Part shown: positions 7,992-35,891 of the stretch, in pieces
How the letters are laid out: every line of letters starts with the position of its first letter
How positions within the stretch are numbered: the first letter of the stretch is position 1
Origin: Arenimonas donghaensis DSM 18148 = HO3-R19
Lineage (GTDB): Bacteria; Pseudomonadota; Gammaproteobacteria; Xanthomonadales; Xanthomonadaceae
Direction of reading: 5' to 3'
Assembly: GCF_000743535.1 (NCBI RefSeq)
Contig: NZ_AVCJ01000008.1
Location: forward strand, 1-37,323
Length of the DNA stretch: 37,323 nucleotides
Made by a program: the position numbers and the translations under genes
The notes under the pieces: model-generated
The model's input: the letters and a program-made list of their open reading frames with translations, nothing else
Told to the model about the DNA's origin: nothing
Database searches by the model: none

Positions 7992-9352
<1,361 letters not shown>

Positions 9353-14730: not shown

Positions 14731-15917
14731 ATACGCTTCCCGCCCCGTCGCCCCTCGGCAACCGGCAACTCTGGCAGTGGCTGGTCGTGGCCGGCGCGGT
14801 GGGCGTGGTGATCTGGCTGCTCGGTCCCATCCTCACGCCCTTCGTCATTTCCGCGCTGCTGGCCTGGCTGGGCGAACCGCTGGTGCGCAAGATCGAGCGC
14901 ACCGGCCGTTCGCGCACCGCCGCGGTGCTGCTGGTGTTCACCCTGATGACCCTGGTGCTGGTGCTGGCGGTCCTGCTGCTGGTGCCGCTGGTGGAAAGCC
15001 AGGTCTCGAACTTCATCAACTGGCTGCCGCGTTTCGGCCAGTGGCTCACCGGCACCGCCGTGCCCTGGCTCGAGTCGCGTTTCAAACTGGAACTGGCCGG
15101 TTACGTCGATCCGAGCCAGCTGATCGCGCTGCTCAAAGAGCACTGGCGCCAGGCCGGCGGCGTCGCCGCCACGGTGATGGGCGAACTGTCCAAGTCCGGC
15201 ATGGCGGTGGTGACCTGGATCGTCAACCTGGCGTTGGTCCCCGTCGTGACCTTCTTCTTCATGCGCGATGGCTCGTCGATGCTGGCCAAGGCGCGCGACC
15301 TGCTGCCGCGGCCGATCGAACCCACCGTCACCAAGCTGGCGCATGAGTCCGACCAGGTACTGGGCGGATTCATCCGCGGCCAGCTGAGCGTGATGATCGC
15401 GCTGGGCACCATCTACGCGGTGGGCCTGACGGCCGTGGGCGTCGACCTGGGCATCCTGATCGGCATCGTCGCCGGCCTGGTCAGTTTCGTGCCCTACCTG
15501 GGGGCGATCGTCGGCCTCGGCGCCGCCGTCATCGCCACCCTGGTGCAACACGGCGATCTGATGCACCTGGCCCTGGTGCTGGGCGTGTTCGGCCTGGGCC
15601 AGCTGCTGGAAAGCTTCTGGCTGACGCCCTGGCTGGTCGGCGACAAGATCGGCCTGCATCCGGTGGCGGTCATCTTCGCGGTGATGGCCGGTGGCCAGCT
15701 GTTCGGTTTCCTGGGCGTGTTGCTGGCCCTGCCTGCCGCCGCCGTGGCCGTGGTGGTCGGCCGGCACGTTTACGAGCGCTACACCGAAAGCGAGCTCTAC
15801 GGCGCCGATGAGTCCGCCGCCATCATCACCGACGCCGAAGCTGTAAATCCCCCTGTGGGCGGGACTTCAGTCCCGAAGGGCTTCGGGACTGAAGTCCCTC
15901 CCACGAAAGACCAATGA
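14727..15917 (+). CDS. perM: AI-2E/PerM family transporter with a REP-encoded C-terminal tail
   Basis: The 396-residue protein belongs to the AI-2 exporter/PerM family with about eight membrane helices, including the repeated GxxxGxxVGLVSFVPYLGAIVG-type segment near residues 240-270. Members include transporters of varied or unknown substrate. A GGAGG lies ten bases before the ATG at 14727. The last 20 residues (377-396, VGGTSVPK through TKDQ) are encoded by a complete REP doublet and its edge. The natural C-terminus has therefore been replaced or extended, while the stop codon still overlaps the hda start as ATGA. A perM-hda order is usual in pseudomonads and xanthomonads. Confidence 0.88.
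   Translation: MNTLPAPSPLGNRQLWQWLVVAGAVGVVIWLLGPILTPFVISALLAWLGEPLVRKIERTGRSRTAAVLLVFTLMTLVLVLAVLLLVPLVESQVSNFINWLPRFGQWLTGTAVPWLESRFKLELAGYVDPSQLIALLKEHWRQAGGVAATVMGELSKSGMAVVTWIVNLALVPVVTFFFMRDGSSMLAKARDLLPRPIEPTVTKLAHESDQVLGGFIRGQLSVMIALGTIYAVGLTAVGVDLGILIGIVAGLVSFVPYLGAIVGLGAAVIATLVQHGDLMHLALVLGVFGLGQLLESFWLTPWLVGDKIGLHPVAVIFAVMAGGQLFGFLGVLLALPAAAVAVVVGRHVYERYTESELYGADESAAIITDAEAVNPPVGGTSVPKGFGTEVPPTKDQ
15854..15905. repeat. REP doublet, subfamily A, inside the 3' end of perM
   Basis: Two inverted 24-nt units (15854-15877 and 15882-15905) with stem GGGAC/GTCCC and loop TTCA are separated by the four bases GGGC. The left head carries one change (GGGC for GGGA). It is translated as residues 377-393 of the permease, in the same reading phase as the copy inside manC. 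The end of the palindrome is eight bases before the hda start codon. Confidence 0.92.
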
Positions 15918-16608: not shown

Positions 16609-16678
16609 TGTGGGAGGGACTTCAGTCCCGAAATCCCCGGCCAGAGCAAACCCTTGTGGGAGGGACTTCAGTCCCGAA
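16609..16678 (+). repeat. REP array upstream of RAYT, two direct copies, 46-base period
   Basis: Two subfamily A REP units (16609-16632 and 16655-16678) stand in the same orientation, 46 bases apart. The 22-base spacer (starting AATCCCCGGCC) is identical to the spacers of the array downstream of the transposase. The array begins 12 bases after the hda stop. Identical spacers indicate tandem amplification of a 46-base unit, not independent insertions. Confidence 0.93.
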
Positions 16679-16744
16679 TTCCCCCACCTGTGGATGAAGG
16701 AAATCCCTATAGGTCAACACCACCTCAACGCCCAGCCTGCCGTT

Positions 16745-17233
16745 ATGGGCCTAACGTTCAACACACGCGGAGAATGTGCGCTTCGCCAAGGTCGCCGCTC
16801 GGTGCCCGGGCAGGCCTGTTTCATTACTTTCACTGCTTCCCAACGCCGGCGCTGGTTCGAAACATGGGAACACGGCAGCACGATGGCGGCCGCAATAGCT
16901 TCGCCATCGCAATGGACGGGCAGCGAATTGATGGCCTGGGTGTTGATGCCCGACCACTGGCACGGGCTCTTGGTGCTCGGCACGGAAAGCCGCCTGGGAC
17001 AGACACTCCAGCGGGCCAAGGGCTCAAGCGCACGCCTCTTCAATAAGCGGCTCGGGCGCAGGGGCTCGGTATGGGGGGCAGGTTTCCATGACCGGGCATT
17101 GCGAAGCCACGAGAACCTACGTGCAGCGGCACGCTACCTCGTGGCCAATCCTCTGCGTGCCGGACTCGTGGAACGAGTGGGCGACTATCCTTTCTGGGAT
17201 GCGACCTGGCTTGAAGGCGACTGCCCCATCTGA
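16745..17233 (+). CDS. REP-associated tyrosine transposase (RAYT, Y1/IS200-like)
   Basis: The 162-residue protein belongs to the Y1 HUH transposase superfamily, RAYT branch. Evidence includes the GRRSVPGQACFITFTA start, the metal-binding HUH motif in LMPDHWHGLL (H71, H73) and the catalytic tyrosine in RYLVANPLRAGLV (Y131). RAYTs cut single-stranded REP DNA at the conserved head and are single-copy, domesticated-looking genes flanked by their REPs. I chose ATG 16745; ATG 16694 is possible, and a frame from 16610 would read through REP DNA and is unlikely. The flanks hold five subfamily A units upstream and downstream, so this subfamily is probably its substrate. It interrupts the spacing between hda and amgK. 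Confidence 0.9.
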   Translation: MGLTFNTRGECALRQGRRSVPGQACFITFTASQRRRWFETWEHGSTMAAAIASPSQWTGSELMAWVLMPDHWHGLLVLGTESRLGQTLQRAKGSSARLFNKRLGRRGSVWGAGFHDRALRSHENLRAAARYLVANPLRAGLVERVGDYPFWDATWLEGDCPI

Positions 17234-17240
17234 CCCCTCT

Positions 17241-19139
<1,899 letters not shown>

Positions 19140-19272
19140 GCCACGGCGAAGCGTCGATTGGGTCACGAAACGCGGGATTGGGGTGCGGTTCGTTCAGCAC
19201 CTGGCCGGTCATCGGGGCTTACCCGTGACTTGTTTCCTTGAATTGGCGGGGGAATTACCCACTAATGCCGGG

Positions 19273-20382
19273 GTGCCAAAAGCCCTCGCCAACGCCGCGC
19301 GACTGATCCTGTGCCACGTCCTCGAGGGCGACCTGGCCGGTTTGCCCGCGCATGAGCGGCGCGAGCAGTACCGCCGGCAGACCCAGCTGTTGCACGGCCC
19401 GATGAGCGTGCTGCTGCTGGCCATGACCGTGCTGGCGGCGCTGGTGTCCGCCTTCGACGTGCTGACCCTGACCGCGGTGTCTGACCGGCTGATGGTGCAG
19501 ACCGGCGGCGTGGCCCTGCTGCTGCTGATGGCCCTGCGCTACCGCCACGTGGTGTCGATCCGTCGCCGGCGCGCGCTGGGCATGGGCTTCCTGGCGCTGT
19601 TGCTGGCCTGCCTGGCCTTGCCCGCACTGGACTGGACCGGCCCTTCGCTGACCCCGCTGGCGGTTTTCCTGCTGATTCCGGTGTCCTGGCTGCCGCTGCT
19701 GGTCAATCCGCAGGCCACCTATGGCGGACTGGCGCTGTGCACGGCGGTGGTGCTGGCCCTCCTGCTGGCGTCGACGGCGCCCCCCGGCGAGCTGTGGCTG
19801 TTTGGCCTGTACTACCTGGTGAGCGTCGGCGCCGGACTGGTGCTGCGCCGGGCCCGCAGCAACCTGGCCACGCGCCTGGACAAGCAGGTCGAAACGCTCT
19901 GGCAGCGCGCCGTCAGCGACCCGCTGACCGGCCTGCTCAACCGCCAGGGCTGGCTCAACCTCGCGGGTACCGCCATGACCGACGCCCTGCAGGCCGGCAA
20001 GCTGCCGGCGGTGCTGTTCATCGACGTCGACCACTTCAAGCGCACCAACGACCAATACGGCCACATGACCGGCGACGCCCTGCTGCGCGCCCTGGGCCAG
20101 ATCATCGACGCCCGCATCGGCCCCGGTGAATTCAGTGCCCGCCTGGGCGGTGAGGAGTTTGCCTGCCTCTTGCCCGATTCTTCCGAAGAAGCCGCGCAGC
20201 GTTTCGCCCAGCGCATCGCCGGCGAGTATCGGGAGCACGCCAGCGAGTTCGGTTCGACCCTGAGCATCGGCATCGCCACCCACGCGGACGACGACCTGCT
20301 CAACGACCTGCTCGCCCGTGCCGACGCGGCGCTGTACGAGGCCAAACGCGCCGGCCGCGACCAGGTCGTCGTCAGCCGGTAA
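19273..20382 (+). CDS. Membrane-bound GGDEF diguanylate cyclase
   Basis: From the GTG at 19273 the protein has 369 residues. About six hydrophobic helices lie between residues 45 and 192, followed by a short linker and a GGDEF domain (about 210-365). The catalytic motif is GGEEF (292-296), expected to be active. The inhibitory I-site is not conserved: the four residues five before the motif are GPGE, not RxxD. Other possible starts are GTG 19225 and TTG 19246; none has a strong ribosome binding site. The membrane part has no sensor fold that I recognise. It lies between murU and manC, without overlap on either side. Confidence 0.82.
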   Translation: MPKALANAARLILCHVLEGDLAGLPAHERREQYRRQTQLLHGPMSVLLLAMTVLAALVSAFDVLTLTAVSDRLMVQTGGVALLLLMALRYRHVVSIRRRRALGMGFLALLLACLALPALDWTGPSLTPLAVFLLIPVSWLPLLVNPQATYGGLALCTAVVLALLLASTAPPGELWLFGLYYLVSVGAGLVLRRARSNLATRLDKQVETLWQRAVSDPLTGLLNRQGWLNLAGTAMTDALQAGKLPAVLFIDVDHFKRTNDQYGHMTGDALLRALGQIIDARIGPGEFSARLGGEEFACLLPDSSEEAAQRFAQRIAGEYREHASEFGSTLSIGIATHADDDLLNDLLARADAALYEAKRAGRDQVVVSR

Positions 20383-20428: not shown

Positions 20429-21916
20429 ATGACCGTCATTGTCCCCGTCCTGCTATCCGGTGGCTCCGGCACCCGCCTGTGGCCGCTGTCGCGCGAAACC
20501 CACCCCAAGCAGTTCCAGCCGCTGGTGGGCGAAAAATCGCTGCTGCAGGCCACCTGGGAGCGCCTAGATGGCCTGGCGGGCCTGGCGCCGCCGATCGTGG
20601 TGGCCAACGAAGAACACCGTTTCATGGTCGCCGAACAGCTGCGCCGGGTCGGCGCGGTGCCCAGTGCCATCGTGCTCGAGCCGGTCGGCCGCAACACCGC
20701 CCCGGCCATCGCCGTGGCGGCCCTGCAGGCCCGTGCCGGCGGCGACGACCCGCTGCTGCTGGTGCTGCCCTCGGACCACGTCATCGCCGATCCCGAAGGC
20801 TTCCGCGTCGCCGTGCAGGCGGCCTGCGATGCCGGCACGCAGGGCGCCCTGGTCACCTTCGGCATCGTGCCGACGGGCCCGGAAACCGGCTACGGCTACA
20901 TCAAGGCCGCGACGCCTGAGGGTCATGCCGTTTCTGTGGGAGGGACTTCAGTCCCGAAGGCTTTCGGGACTGAAGTCCCTCCCACAAAGGTAGGCGTCAT
21001 GCCGGTGGAAGCCTTCGTCGAAAAACCCGACAAGGCGACGGCAGAAGCCTACGTCGCCTCCGGCGATTACTTCTGGAACTCCGGCATGTTCCTGTTCCGG
21101 GCCTCGACCTACCTGGCCGAGCTGGAAAAGCAGGCCCCAGCGATACTGGCCGCTGCCCGCGAGTCGCTGGCAAAGGCCCAGCGCGACGTCGATTTCCTGC
21201 GCCTGGACCGCGAGGCTTTCGAAGCCTGCCCGGGCGATTCGATCGACTACGCGGTGATGGAAAAAACCGACAAGGCCGCGGTGCTGCCCATCGACCTGGG
21301 CTGGAACGACGTCGGCAGCTGGTCGGCGCTGTGGGAAATCGCCGACCAGGATCCCGACGGCAACGCCCACCACGGCGACGTCATGGCCCTGGACTGCCGC
21401 AACACCCTGGCCTGGGGCGGCCGCCGGCTGGTGACCCTGCTGGGCCTGGACGACGTGATCGTGGTCGATACCGACGACGCCCTGCTGGTCGCGGCCCGCG
21501 ACCAGGTGCAGCAGGTGAAGGACATCGTCGCCCGACTCAAGGCCGAGGGCCGGCCGCAGGCCAGCATCCACCGCAAGGTGTATCGCCCCTGGGGCAGCTA
21601 CGACGGCATCGACGGCGGCGAGCGTTTCCAGGTCAAGCGCATCGTGGTCAATCCCGGTGCCGCCCTGAGCCTGCAGATGCACCACCATCGCGCCGAACAC
21701 TGGATCGTGGTCTCGGGCTCGGCCCGGGTGACCTGCGACGACAAGGTTTTCCTGCTCACCGAAAACCAGAGCACCTACATCCCCCTGGGCAGCAAGCACC
21801 GACTGGAAAACCCCGGCAAGGTGCCGACCGAACTGATCGAGGTGCAGTCGGGCAGTTACCTGGGTGAAGACGACATCGTGCGGTTCGAGGACGTTTATGG
21901 TCGCCAGAAGGACTAG
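20429..21916 (+). CDS. manC: Mannose-1-phosphate guanylyltransferase / mannose-6-phosphate isomerase with in-frame REP insertion
   Basis: ManC/XanB-type bifunctional enzyme that makes GDP-mannose for exopolysaccharide and LPS. The nucleotidyltransferase domain starts LLSGGSGTRLWPLSRE and keeps PKQF and FVEKPD. The C-terminal cupin isomerase domain carries PWGSYD and the metal-binding QMHHHRAEHW. The 495-residue length exceeds the usual 465-480. The excess is a REP doublet that encodes residues 170-186 (VGGTSVPK to EVPPT), inserted just after the conserved ETGYGYI motif and before PVEAFVEKPD. All catalytic motifs around it are intact, so a functional enzyme with a surface loop is likely. The start ATG at 20429 follows the GGDEF stop by 46 bases. 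Confidence 0.93.
   Translation: MTVIVPVLLSGGSGTRLWPLSRETHPKQFQPLVGEKSLLQATWERLDGLAGLAPPIVVANEEHRFMVAEQLRRVGAVPSAIVLEPVGRNTAPAIAVAALQARAGGDDPLLLVLPSDHVIADPEGFRVAVQAACDAGTQGALVTFGIVPTGPETGYGYIKAATPEGHAVSVGGTSVPKAFGTEVPPTKVGVMPVEAFVEKPDKATAEAYVASGDYFWNSGMFLFRASTYLAELEKQAPAILAAARESLAKAQRDVDFLRLDREAFEACPGDSIDYAVMEKTDKAAVLPIDLGWNDVGSWSALWEIADQDPDGNAHHGDVMALDCRNTLAWGGRRLVTLLGLDDVIVVDTDDALLVAARDQVQQVKDIVARLKAEGRPQASIHRKVYRPWGSYDGIDGGERFQVKRIVVNPGAALSLQMHHHRAEHWIVVSGSARVTCDDKVFLLTENQSTYIPLGSKHRLENPGKVPTELIEVQSGSYLGEDDIVRFEDVYGRQKD
20935..20986. repeat. REP doublet, subfamily A, in frame inside manC
   Basis: Two perfect 24-base inverted arms (20935-20958 and 20963-20986) enclose the loop GGCT. It matches the consensus of the arrays around the RAYT gene in every position. 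The doublet is read as residues 170-186 of ManC with no stop codon. The host gene remains open on both sides, so the element has become coding sequence. Confidence 0.96.
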
Positions 21917-33589: not shown

Positions 33590-33613
33590 TGCGGGAGGGA
33601 CGTCAGTCCCGAA
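33590..33613 (+). repeat. Single subfamily A REP unit at the stop of propeller gene 2
   Basis: One unit with two changes (TGC for TGT in the head, loop GTCA for TTCA), four bases from the stop codon. Its position is the same as in copy 1, so it was present before or duplicated with the gene. Confidence 0.8.
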
Positions 33614-33617
33614 GCCC

Positions 33618-35891
33618 TCAGTTGGTGCCGGGACGCACCATCACGTGGTTGGAGATCGAGCCCGAGTCCGGGTTCACGATCTGGTACAGGCCCTGGATCG
33701 TGCGGTTCGGGGCGGCGACGGTCACGTTCAGCGTCGCCCGCGGCAGGCCGGTGAAGCCGGTCAGCACGTCGTCGAGCTCGACCACCAGGGTGGAACCCGC
33801 CTTCACGGTGCCGGCCAGGTTGTCGGTGGAGATCGTGTTGCCGGTCTCGCCCATCACCACGATTTCGTACTCGCGGTCCTTCGAACCGGTGTTGGTCAGC
33901 ACCATGCGGCTCAGCCAGCCGGCCGGGATCTGCGCCAGCGGGGCCTGCAGCTCGGTGCCGTTGCGGGTGATTTCGCCCAGGTCCAGCGGGCCGCGGTCGG
34001 CCACGGCGTACAGCGCCGGGGTCGCCGACACGGCGTCGAGCATCACGGTGTACTCGCTGGCCAGCATCGGCACGCCGCCGGCTTCGAAGCACAGGTGGTG
34101 GGCCAGGGCATCGTTGCTGCCGATGGTGAACACGGCTTCCAGGTCGCTGAAGTCGTCGGCCGACTGGATGTTGACCGAGCAGTCGGCCAGCGGGCTGAAG
34201 AACACGTCCGCGGCAGCGCTGAAGTCACCGGCGAAGACGAGCGCGGTGTCGGCGTGCATCAGGCCGGCGAGGGTGATCGCCGGGCCGGCCGGGGTCAGCG
34301 GCTGCACGGCGCCGGTCACGTCCTGGACCTCGCCGTAGCTGAACGCGCCAATGCGGCCCAGCAGCACGTCGAAGGTCGGCGCGGCATTGGTGAACTCGCT
34401 GTAGGCCGGGTCGGTGGACTCGACGTTGGCGATCGGGTTGCCCTCGGCGTCGACTTCCAGCGCGTAGCTGGGGGCGAAGCGGATGTACGGGCCCGACACC
34501 GTGTAGACGCGACCGGCGGCACCGCCAGCGGCGGCCTGCGACGGGAAGTCGTAGAGGCTGTAGGTGCAGTTGACGCCGTTGGTGCCGGTGATCTGGCGGT
34601 CGCCGGTGATCACGAGGCGGTCCGAAGCGGTGACGTTGTTGTCGTTGGCGGTGATCGAGAAGTGCATGGCCGAACCGCCCAGGCCATTGATCGCACCCAA
34701 GCCGGCGCTGCCGCTGCCGTCGTAGGTGGCGGCCGAACCCGCGGCGAAGCGCAGGCCGTTGTCGCACTCGAAGCGCGCGTAGCGCACTTCACCGATCGAG
34801 AAGCTGTAGCCCAGGTTGGCCGACAGGTTCAGGTCGCCAGCCGGGTTGAGCAGGGTCACCGGCGAGCCGGGCGAAGCGATGATCTCTTGCGCGTAAACCA
34901 CCGGGGCGGCCGGATTGGCGTCGAGCTGCACGCCCTGGGCGATCGAGGCGGCGCCGGTGGCGAAGAAGTTGCCATGGGCGAACGGAGTCGAACCGACCGC
35001 TACCGTGTTGGAAACCGCCAGCGTGGCGGTGTCGAAGATCCGCACGGCATCGGAGTTAACCATCGAGACGTAGAACTGGCTGCCATCGGGCGTGAAGTCG
35101 ACGCCCCAGGTCTGCGTGCCCATGGCGATGGTCGAGTCCACGGTCAGGGTCACCAGGTCGACGATCACGAGGCTGGTGAAGCTGTCGCTGGTGACTACGG
35201 CCATGGTGCCGTCATTGGATATCGCCACGCCGCTTGCCCGCCAGCTAAACCCGACCGTGCCGGTGACGGTGTCGGTGGCGGTATCGACAATCAGCAGTTC
35301 TTCATTGAACCCATTGGCAACGACCAGGCGGGTGCCGTCCGGCGACATGGCCAGCTGCAGCGGGCCAGAACCCGCCGGGATCGAGCCGGTTACCGTAAAC
35401 GTGCCCGTGTCGATGACGGTGATGCTGTTGCCGCTGTAATTGGAAACATAGAGTTTGCTGCCGTCCGGCGTCGTCACCAGGCCATAGGGGTTCGAGCCAA
35501 CCGCAACGCTGTTGACGACCGAGTGGGTCGCGGTATCGATGGCCCGCACGACATTGCCACTGAAGTCGACCACGTAAGCCACGCTGCCATCCGGCGAAAA
35601 GGTGACGCCGATTGCGTCGCCAACGACGCCGATCGTGGCGACGACCGTATTGGTGCTGGTGTCGATGGCCGACACGCTGCCGCCGCGGTTGCCGATATAG
35701 ACCAGGCTGCTGTCGGGTGATACGGACACCCCCCAGGGCTGGCTGCCCACGGGGATGGTGGCGACAACGGCCTGCGTGGCGTCGTCTACGACCGAAACGT
35801 TGTTGCTGTTGGAGTTTGGCAGGTAGGCATAGGGCTGCGCCGCTACCTGGCTCGCGCCAAGCAGCAGCGCCGCCATCAGAGTGATTCGCAT
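33618..35891 (-). CDS. Secreted YncE-like seven-bladed beta-propeller protein with unknown C-terminal domain (copy 2)
   Basis: The 757-residue paralogue of the preceding protein has the same layout: signal peptide (1-18), seven YVTN-type blades (about 20-320) and the same C-terminal region of about 430 residues. The two C-terminal regions are close to identical over long stretches, and both end VNPDSGSISNHVMVRPGTN. The propellers are much more divergent. The three DNA elements of copy 1 (leader block, terminator, half REP) are all repeated. AGGGGA precedes the ATG at 35889-35891. It is probably exported and surface-exposed; ligand and function are unknown. Confidence 0.85.
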   Translation of the reverse strand: MRITLMAALLLGASQVAAQPYAYLPNSNSNNVSVVDDATQAVVATIPVGSQPWGVSVSPDSSLVYIGNRGGSVSAIDTSTNTVVATIGVVGDAIGVTFSPDGSVAYVVDFSGNVVRAIDTATHSVVNSVAVGSNPYGLVTTPDGSKLYVSNYSGNSITVIDTGTFTVTGSIPAGSGPLQLAMSPDGTRLVVANGFNEELLIVDTATDTVTGTVGFSWRASGVAISNDGTMAVVTSDSFTSLVIVDLVTLTVDSTIAMGTQTWGVDFTPDGSQFYVSMVNSDAVRIFDTATLAVSNTVAVGSTPFAHGNFFATGAASIAQGVQLDANPAAPVVYAQEIIASPGSPVTLLNPAGDLNLSANLGYSFSIGEVRYARFECDNGLRFAAGSAATYDGSGSAGLGAINGLGGSAMHFSITANDNNVTASDRLVITGDRQITGTNGVNCTYSLYDFPSQAAAGGAAGRVYTVSGPYIRFAPSYALEVDAEGNPIANVESTDPAYSEFTNAAPTFDVLLGRIGAFSYGEVQDVTGAVQPLTPAGPAITLAGLMHADTALVFAGDFSAAADVFFSPLADCSVNIQSADDFSDLEAVFTIGSNDALAHHLCFEAGGVPMLASEYTVMLDAVSATPALYAVADRGPLDLGEITRNGTELQAPLAQIPAGWLSRMVLTNTGSKDREYEIVVMGETGNTISTDNLAGTVKAGSTLVVELDDVLTGFTGLPRATLNVTVAAPNRTIQGLYQIVNPDSGSISNHVMVRPGTN

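Follow-up and report, generated by a model that had tools for sequence, protein, structure and literature searches.

RAYTs (REP-associated tyrosine transposases) are HUH single-strand transposases, and the Rickettsia palindromic elements (RPEs) are the classical case of palindromes inside genes. The sections of Di Nocera et al. (2013, PMC3733652) that bear on our subject describe GTAG-tagged, RAYT-linked palindromes in several species, mostly intergenic and at times inside genes for known proteins. They suggest loops and linkers as neutral REP sites and mention that recB of X. campestris and X. oryzae holds different REPs at about the same site. REPINs are presented in the corresponding part of Bertels and Rainey (2011, PMC3116915) as inverted REP doublets forming one long hairpin. 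The relevant text of PMC2229807 treats RPEs as palindromic selfish DNA of 105-146 bp lying in frame within conserved enzymes, and an RPE-bearing guanylate kinase is given there as translated and active, with a changed substrate affinity; RPE-4/6 are equated in PMC3733652 with CGTC-tagged REPs that have no dedicated transposase. TnpA-REP cuts single-stranded REP DNA at CT according to the biochemical part of PMC8266576, which for the Marinomonas enzyme reports that a GTAG-to-GTGG change moves cleavage to CC, CA also being stated for GTGG. The RepRanger paper (PMC12306157) likewise forms part of the prior work on REPs.

Here we describe a REP doublet inside manC of Arenimonas donghaensis and follow its site through the genus. 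Measured against the parts of these papers cited above, the doublet architecture is that of REPINs (PMC3116915), whose analysis concerns extragenic space, whereas our element lies inside a conserved coding gene. As with RPEs, an in-frame palindrome is found in conserved proteins (open frames, predicted translation), but the element is 52 bp long with a GTGG tag, as against 105-146 bp or, for RPE-4/6, a CGTC tag, and the genome has RAYT genes, whereas RPE-4/6 are without a dedicated transposase. The Rickettsia parallel drawn by a sequence-only reading of the locus therefore holds for the behaviour and not for the element, which is a GTRG-tagged, RAYT-linked REP and no RPE. With the REPtrons and TnpA-REP of PMC8266576 the locus shares a RAYT gene placed between REPs, but the tag is mostly GTGG rather than GTAG and the RAYT is assigned from its sequence. 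Compared with the intragenic GTAG REPs described in PMC3733652, we find same-site occupancy in manC, tsaD, a molybdopterin oxidoreductase gene and dsbD within one genus, and one reading phase for all 15 phased forward arms. Translated or intragenic REPs have already been described; the dense same-site recurrence in conserved genes of one genus is the new part, and no report of a manC or tsaD REP, or of recurrence across several genes, was found among the open-access matches listed. The manC REP is ordinary in kind and unusual in density.

Materials and methods

The A. donghaensis genome under study, called G000, has an assembly of 2,975,084 bases (~2.98 Mb) in 51 contigs; the window, i.e. the whole stretch of 37,323 nucleotides that was analysed, is contig 8, and G001 etc. 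denote relatives of the same genus. A same-genus search at E <= 1e-50 found manC in 23 of 27 genomes, and the loop from TGYGY to EKP was read at 24 loci (23 genomes plus a second copy in G007). The gene context of REPs was called with a codon-usage gene caller made for this analysis and independent of the annotation. The context analysis of G000 arms covered 136 distinct arms at up to three mismatches, to be set against the 205 counted genome-wide at up to two. A scan for arms with up to three mismatches was run over the available coding sequences of manC, tsaD, the molybdopterin oxidoreductase and dsbD, a procedure chosen to avoid expectation bias; it took in tsaD without two G012 pieces (L217 and L218), whose loop was read separately.

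Results

A REP doublet inside manC

The manC gene (20429..21916, plus strand), identified from its open reading frame, profiles and a genome search, encodes a xanB-type mannose-1-phosphate guanylyltransferase / mannose-6-phosphate isomerase of 495 aa and is present as a single copy. Its product matches TIGR01479 (GMP_PMI) over profile positions 1-467 of 467 with 711 bits (cut-off 373), shows the Pfam order NTP_transferase, ManC beta-helix and MannoseP_isomer, and matches proteins at 63-70% identity in Stenotrophomonas, Luteimonas, Lysobacter and Xanthomonas, which points to the family Lysobacteraceae (Xanthomonadaceae). No second full manC was found in G000, where 40 of the 41 genome matches span merely the REP peptide and its surroundings; the second intact copy considered in the sequence-only reading can thus be set aside.

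An inverted-repeat search together with family membership identified a head-to-head REP doublet at 20935..20986 (unstranded), whose 24-nt arms (20935-20958 and 20963-20986) are 100% complementary and lie 4 nt apart, 52 nt in total. By arm scan and phasing, the forward arm GTGGGAGGGACTTCAGTCCCGA (20936..20957, plus strand) gives the peptide VGGTSVP(K) and the reverse arm (20964..20985, minus strand) the peptide (F)GTEVPPT. The doublet encodes residues 170-186, and the reading frame is open throughout. The earlier description of a perfect 52-base doublet within an intact 495-aa frame is confirmed, and the REP coordinates map onto exactly the residues it had given for the insert. Its expectation that 52 bases had entered with two more does not hold: the net gain is about 24 codons and flanking codons are altered too.

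The REP family and a neighbouring RAYT gene

The window contains 15 REP arms at up to three mismatches, as against a mean of 0.00 in 100 shuffles, and the genome 205 arms at up to two mismatches, as against 0 for a reversed control pattern, which rules out a chance palindrome. There are furthermore 66 exact-core inverted doublets in G000 (control 0). The tag reads GTGG in nearly all G000 copies among those listed and GTAG or GTGG in relatives, a strict GTAG not being kept. Most REPs were expected to be intergenic, and this is the case for 48 of the 57 distinct G000 doublets in the examined stretches (66 in the genome), with five lying across gene ends and four within genes; in G007, 43 of 51 doublets are intergenic among those listed. 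Within the window, arm scan and gene caller place a plain intergenic doublet of the same family as that in manC at 7993..8041 (unstranded).

A RAYT gene (16691..17233, plus strand; NF047646 at 119.6 bits with a cut-off of 80, PF01797), encoding 180 aa from the given ATG, lies 3.2 kb upstream of manC with REP arms on both flanks (arm starts 16610 and 16656; 17242-17422). The arm scan places two tandem arms just upstream of it (16610..16677, plus strand), the open frame of the RAYT starting at 16610 within one arm, and five arms just downstream (17242..17422, unstranded), including a doublet at 17334-17384. The genome has three PF01797 genes, the one in the window included. Given the copy number of the family, its doublets and the REP-flanked RAYT, the manC insert belongs to a RAYT-REP system of the ordinary kind.

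Several further observations concern this neighbourhood. A diverged single arm with two mismatches (33591-33612) follows closely on the 3' end of a gene that the gene caller places on the minus strand (33618-35876). The amgK-murU-GGDEF block (17455-20382), which has the REP cluster 17242-17422 at one edge, is inverted relative to manC in G000, and amgK is on the strand opposite to manC in 13 of 14 regions from relatives, namely the 13 where amgK and murU were found. In G005, a RAYT 55% identical to that of the window sits between hda and a GGDEF gene (L153:10631), i.e. in the same neighbourhood.

The manC loop across the genus

Complete doublets occupy the manC loop in four of 23 genomes (G000, G003, G007 and G017), and partial REPs are seen in G009 and G001 as one recognisable arm and in G014 and G023 as a REP-like end of 10 nt. 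The segment from FGIVP to EKPD measures 33-36 residues (mode 34) at 13 of the 24 loci (12 genomes and the second G007 copy), 37-42 residues in G001, G002, G009, G011, G014, G015 and G023, 53 in G003, 56 in G007 and G017 and 58 in G000. The empty site that had been anticipated in sister species is therefore there, in the form of the short loop of relatives, and the interpretation of the doublet as an insertion is supported. Occupation of the site in several species, and the like pattern in other genes, lay beyond what the sequence-only reading could show. Outside the genus, no REP was present in the 30 manC loops read, and 80 outgroup loci gave merely two loose arm matches altogether. G007 has two manC genes (L089 and L111), one alone of which carries the REP.

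The four doublets differ in their loops or arms: the arms are of the GGGAC..GTCCC type in G000, GGGCC then GGGAC in G007, GGGAC in G017 and GGGGC in G003. Exact GGGAC, GGGGC and GGGCC arms number 172, 3 and 0 in G000, 150, 6 and 114 in G007, 85, 5 and 8 in G017, and 11, 9 and 6 in G003, and by these counts the manC arms are of types used by their own genome; the match is uninformative for G003, which has no dominant type and in which two of the nine GGGGC copies are the manC arms themselves. The remnant in G001 manC belongs to the CGCC type, and exact copies of that type account for 38 of 63 G001 arms among those listed. In the manC tree, the sister of REP-bearing G003 is G026, with a short loop (96), and that of G014, which carries a REP end, is G005, also with a short loop (100), while deep nodes are weak (50-75), a point against our preferred reading.

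REPs in other coding sequences

The four in-gene doublets of G000 are those in manC, in the molybdopterin oxidoreductase gene (residues 294-310 of 807), in dsbD (residues 297-317 of 721, the linker between DsbD_N and DsbD_TM) and in an AI-2E-type transporter gene. The latter (14787..15917, plus strand; profile and gene caller) has a REP-coded C-terminal tail, the doublet at 15855..15904 (unstranded; gene caller), which is the second in-gene doublet of the window, covering residues 357-373 of 376. When this C terminus was read in 13 relatives, G009 and G002 proved to have REP arms, as G000 does, and G017 to have a fragment. The protein tail in G002 (L152) consists of five successive REP arms in one frame. 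In G007, four of the 51 doublets are in genes, among those listed: tsaD, manC, an icmF-like mutase gene, where the REP separates the GTPase domain from the mutase domain, and a gene whose product matches AsmA below threshold and has the REP at its C terminus.

A further G000 doublet, with a decayed second arm, lies at about residues 284-300 of tsaD, a gene present in 25 of 27 genomes and giving a single match wherever it is whole. The tsaD loop was read in 20 genomes (the motif missed G025, G022, G016, G006 and G013): G000, G007 and G017 carry a REP at identical codons, and the 17 others have a 31-residue segment. These empty segments are ordinary sequence of constant length, e.g. with AEKRRG, except in G009, whose segment has the same length and a REP-like start, CTTGTGGGCGGGGCC, exactly at the junction. 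Among 15 genomes searched, the oxidoreductase gene holds a REP in G000, G002, G007, G023 and G014, and fragments were read by eye in G009 and G005; dsbD, searched in 15 genomes of which G014, G015 and G017 were covered partially, has a complete REP in G000 and G001. A different palindrome family, of the CCCTCTCCCC...GGGGAGAGGG type, is translated at the REP site of the oxidoreductase in G017 (L221) and G004 (L228). The G014 oxidoreductase gene is broken across two contigs (L232 and L234); the break coincides with the REP, and one of the contig ends shows a run of G.

In the scan of the four coding sequences, 22 of the 24 arms outside G000 fall at the G000 site. The two off-site arms are both from G002, one overlapping the tsaD 3' end and the other a loose match at oxidoreductase residue 636. 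Matches to 10-nt REP-end patterns are likewise confined to the G000 sites, bar one arm in the tail of G000 tsaD.

Gene ends form a separate matter. The stop codon of G000 tsaD (L175:6705-7793) is supplied by another REP arm, giving the tail VGGTSVPTRSNRD, and the end of tsaD in G002 overlaps an arm. Three predicted G000 genes (L082, L169 and L175) terminate within a REP arm and have tails that resemble one another, CGRDFSPE...RD, so that the frame CGRDFSPE...RD* is used three times at gene 3' ends. As a side remark, REPs may serve as ready-made C termini at these three gene ends.

Reading phase and predicted consequences for the protein

The predicted reading frames of manC, tsaD, the oxidoreductase gene and dsbD are open through the REP. 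Across these genes, all 15 phased forward arms are in phase 0 (VGGTSVP or equivalent), a count that excludes the G014 oxidoreductase arm. Among 17 phased reverse arms, 13 are in the matching phase; three, namely those of G017 manC and G000 dsbD and the loose match at residue 636, use a different open phase, and one, at the tsaD end of G002, falls in a stop-containing phase. On inspection the G000 forward arm is open in all three frames; the phase bias therefore suggests either that the peptide is under selection or that ancestry is shared.

AlphaFold2, run on ManC with an alignment of 52 sequences, gave a mean pLDDT of 89.9, with residues 165-186, between strands 157-160 and 191-197, as the sole internal stretch below 50. 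The ManC fold is thus predicted to be kept, the insert forming its sole disordered internal loop. In PDB entry 2x5s, from Thermotoga, the stretch left unaligned between the two parts matched to ManC is five residues long (155-159).

With the loop removed, manC of G000 gave dN/dS values of 0.21-0.23 against four relatives. A dN/dS of about 0.2 together with the single copy argues for ManC being a working enzyme; the insert is probably translated in vivo and the enzyme probably active. The four G000 pairs are the highest of ten, the other pairs giving 0.04-0.20; some relaxation is possible, and constraint in G000 is perhaps slightly weaker.

Relationships among REP-bearing genomes

A concatenated protein tree of 14 genomes, G014 not among them, unites G000, G009 and G001 (99.7/100), joins G005 to this group (100/100) and leaves G007 and G017 outside. 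The tsaD REPs belong to two separate lineages, the nearer relatives of G000 carrying short segments, and in the case of the oxidoreductase the REP carriers G002, G007 and G023 are not members of the G000 clade. The dsbD REPs could go back to one ancestral insertion, since the second carrier, G001, is in the sister group of G000.

We considered an exchange of tsaD alleles between G000 and the G007/G017 lineages. The closest sequence to G000 tsaD is that of G005 for the 819 nt before the insert (0.894), of G014 for the last 150 nt before it (0.900) and of G004 for the 135 nt after it (0.919). Since the flanks are nearest to these REP-free genomes and not to G007 or G017, no exchange is indicated.

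In G007, an extra GTCCCTCCCACAGG piece follows the oxidoreductase REP and a TTGTGGCTGGGCC piece precedes the tsaD REP. We read these pieces as older REPs beside newer ones.

Discussion

We put the probability at roughly 65% that a small number of tolerant loops are colonised again and again by RAYT-type REP doublets, which persist solely where their frame is open and innocuous. According to this reading, a REP doublet (REPIN) of the GTRG-tagged family of G000 itself would have entered the short turn between two nucleotidyltransferase strands of ManC, with the frame restored, and the insert would be translated as a 17-residue, Gly/Pro-rich and probably disordered loop that ManC tolerates. The likely mover would be a RAYT, one being encoded 3.2 kb upstream between the same REPs, and we infer that it is RAYT activity that mobilises the REPs. 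The manC loop and single sites in tsaD, the oxidoreductase and perhaps dsbD would each have received REPs on more than one occasion within the genus, and some new REPs may have landed on or beside remnants of older ones. Selection would then retain copies in the stop-free, small-residue frame VG[GA].S.[PA] ... [FI][GA].E.PPT. Loop tolerance alone could concentrate surviving insertions at the same sites, with no target preference needed. The manC insert has the look of selfish DNA that recurs within proteins and is tolerated there. Besides the weak deep nodes of the manC tree, G005 counts against this reading, as it has a RAYT at the same locus and a manC without REP; just three exact arms of the three types were counted in that genome.

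The rival explanation that survives best is a single ancestral insertion in each gene, kept in frame, with its arms homogenised by gene conversion and the insert lost by decay or by replacement with a REP-free allele. It would account for site and reading phase being identical across species, for the chimera of two arm types in G007 manC and for the dsbD carriers being in sister groups. The single arms or 10-nt ends in manC of G009, G001, G014 and G023 speak for it too, since partial REPs in several relatives fit an old, decayed insertion. So does the G009 tsaD segment, whose unaltered length and REP-like junction fit either repeated or single insertion. However, decay would not restore the ordinary, constant-length tsaD segments seen in all empty genes except that of G009, and the short manC loops of G026 and G005 are nested as sisters of REP-bearing G003 and of G014 with its REP end. 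Moreover, on either side of its insert G000 tsaD is nearest to relatives that lack a REP, with no sign of exchange with G007 or G017. We regard a single ancestral insertion as unlikely, though by no means far-fetched; the same-site recurrence would then reflect repeated insertion, and repeated insertion, partly REP-on-REP, is what we prefer on these sequence comparisons over one ancestral event followed by gene conversion.

We see little chance that the insert has been adopted for a function, its 24-bp mRNA hairpin or the added loop regulating the gene or the enzyme. The manC transcript region does fold far better than its shuffles (-93.1 kcal/mol against a shuffled mean of -56.5, z -8.9), and the insert is found in several species; but the fold is strong because a palindrome trivially folds, and the variation of arms and loop between species, the relatives without the insert and the unrelated proteins hosting the same element point to neutrality. 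Finally, a repeat misassembled into manC, or a pseudogene, deserves almost no credence: REP hairpins can break assemblies, as in the split G014 oxidoreductase gene, but complete doublets lie in the same loop of three other genomes, leaving the assembly artefact once considered unsupported, and the intact frame of the single-copy gene, its full coverage of the family profile and a dN/dS of about 0.2 rule both out.

Going beyond repeated insertion into tolerant loops, it is conceivable, at rather less than even odds, that manC, tsaD, the oxidoreductase gene and perhaps dsbD hold true REP landing sites, entered independently by REP types of the respective genome to a degree beyond what loop tolerance gives. 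A random-placement null (nine events, 50-residue windows) yields P of about 2e-10, a value that ignores loop tolerance and shared ancestry, predates the G014 arm and is not relied on. In a DNA-fold scan of empty genes, the windows at the target sites ranked within the stabler quarter (0.02-0.24), this being a minimum of five windows and hence biased, and two of the three tsaD rows failed the motif test. If the sites are true landing sites, RAYT-REP systems would inhabit coding genes with a preference for particular sites, almost in the manner of homing elements, and older REPs would give way to new ones in the same frame.

On a practical level, an in-gene hairpin can fragment an assembly, as it did in G014. 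For the biology of these elements, the genus amounts to a replicated experiment of nature on the entry of selfish palindromes into proteins and their survival there, in which one site occurs in empty, full, chimeric and partial form. With the sites described here, tsaD among them, one can ask whether RAYT-REP systems prefer certain targets or whether the pattern is decided by the tolerance of loops alone.
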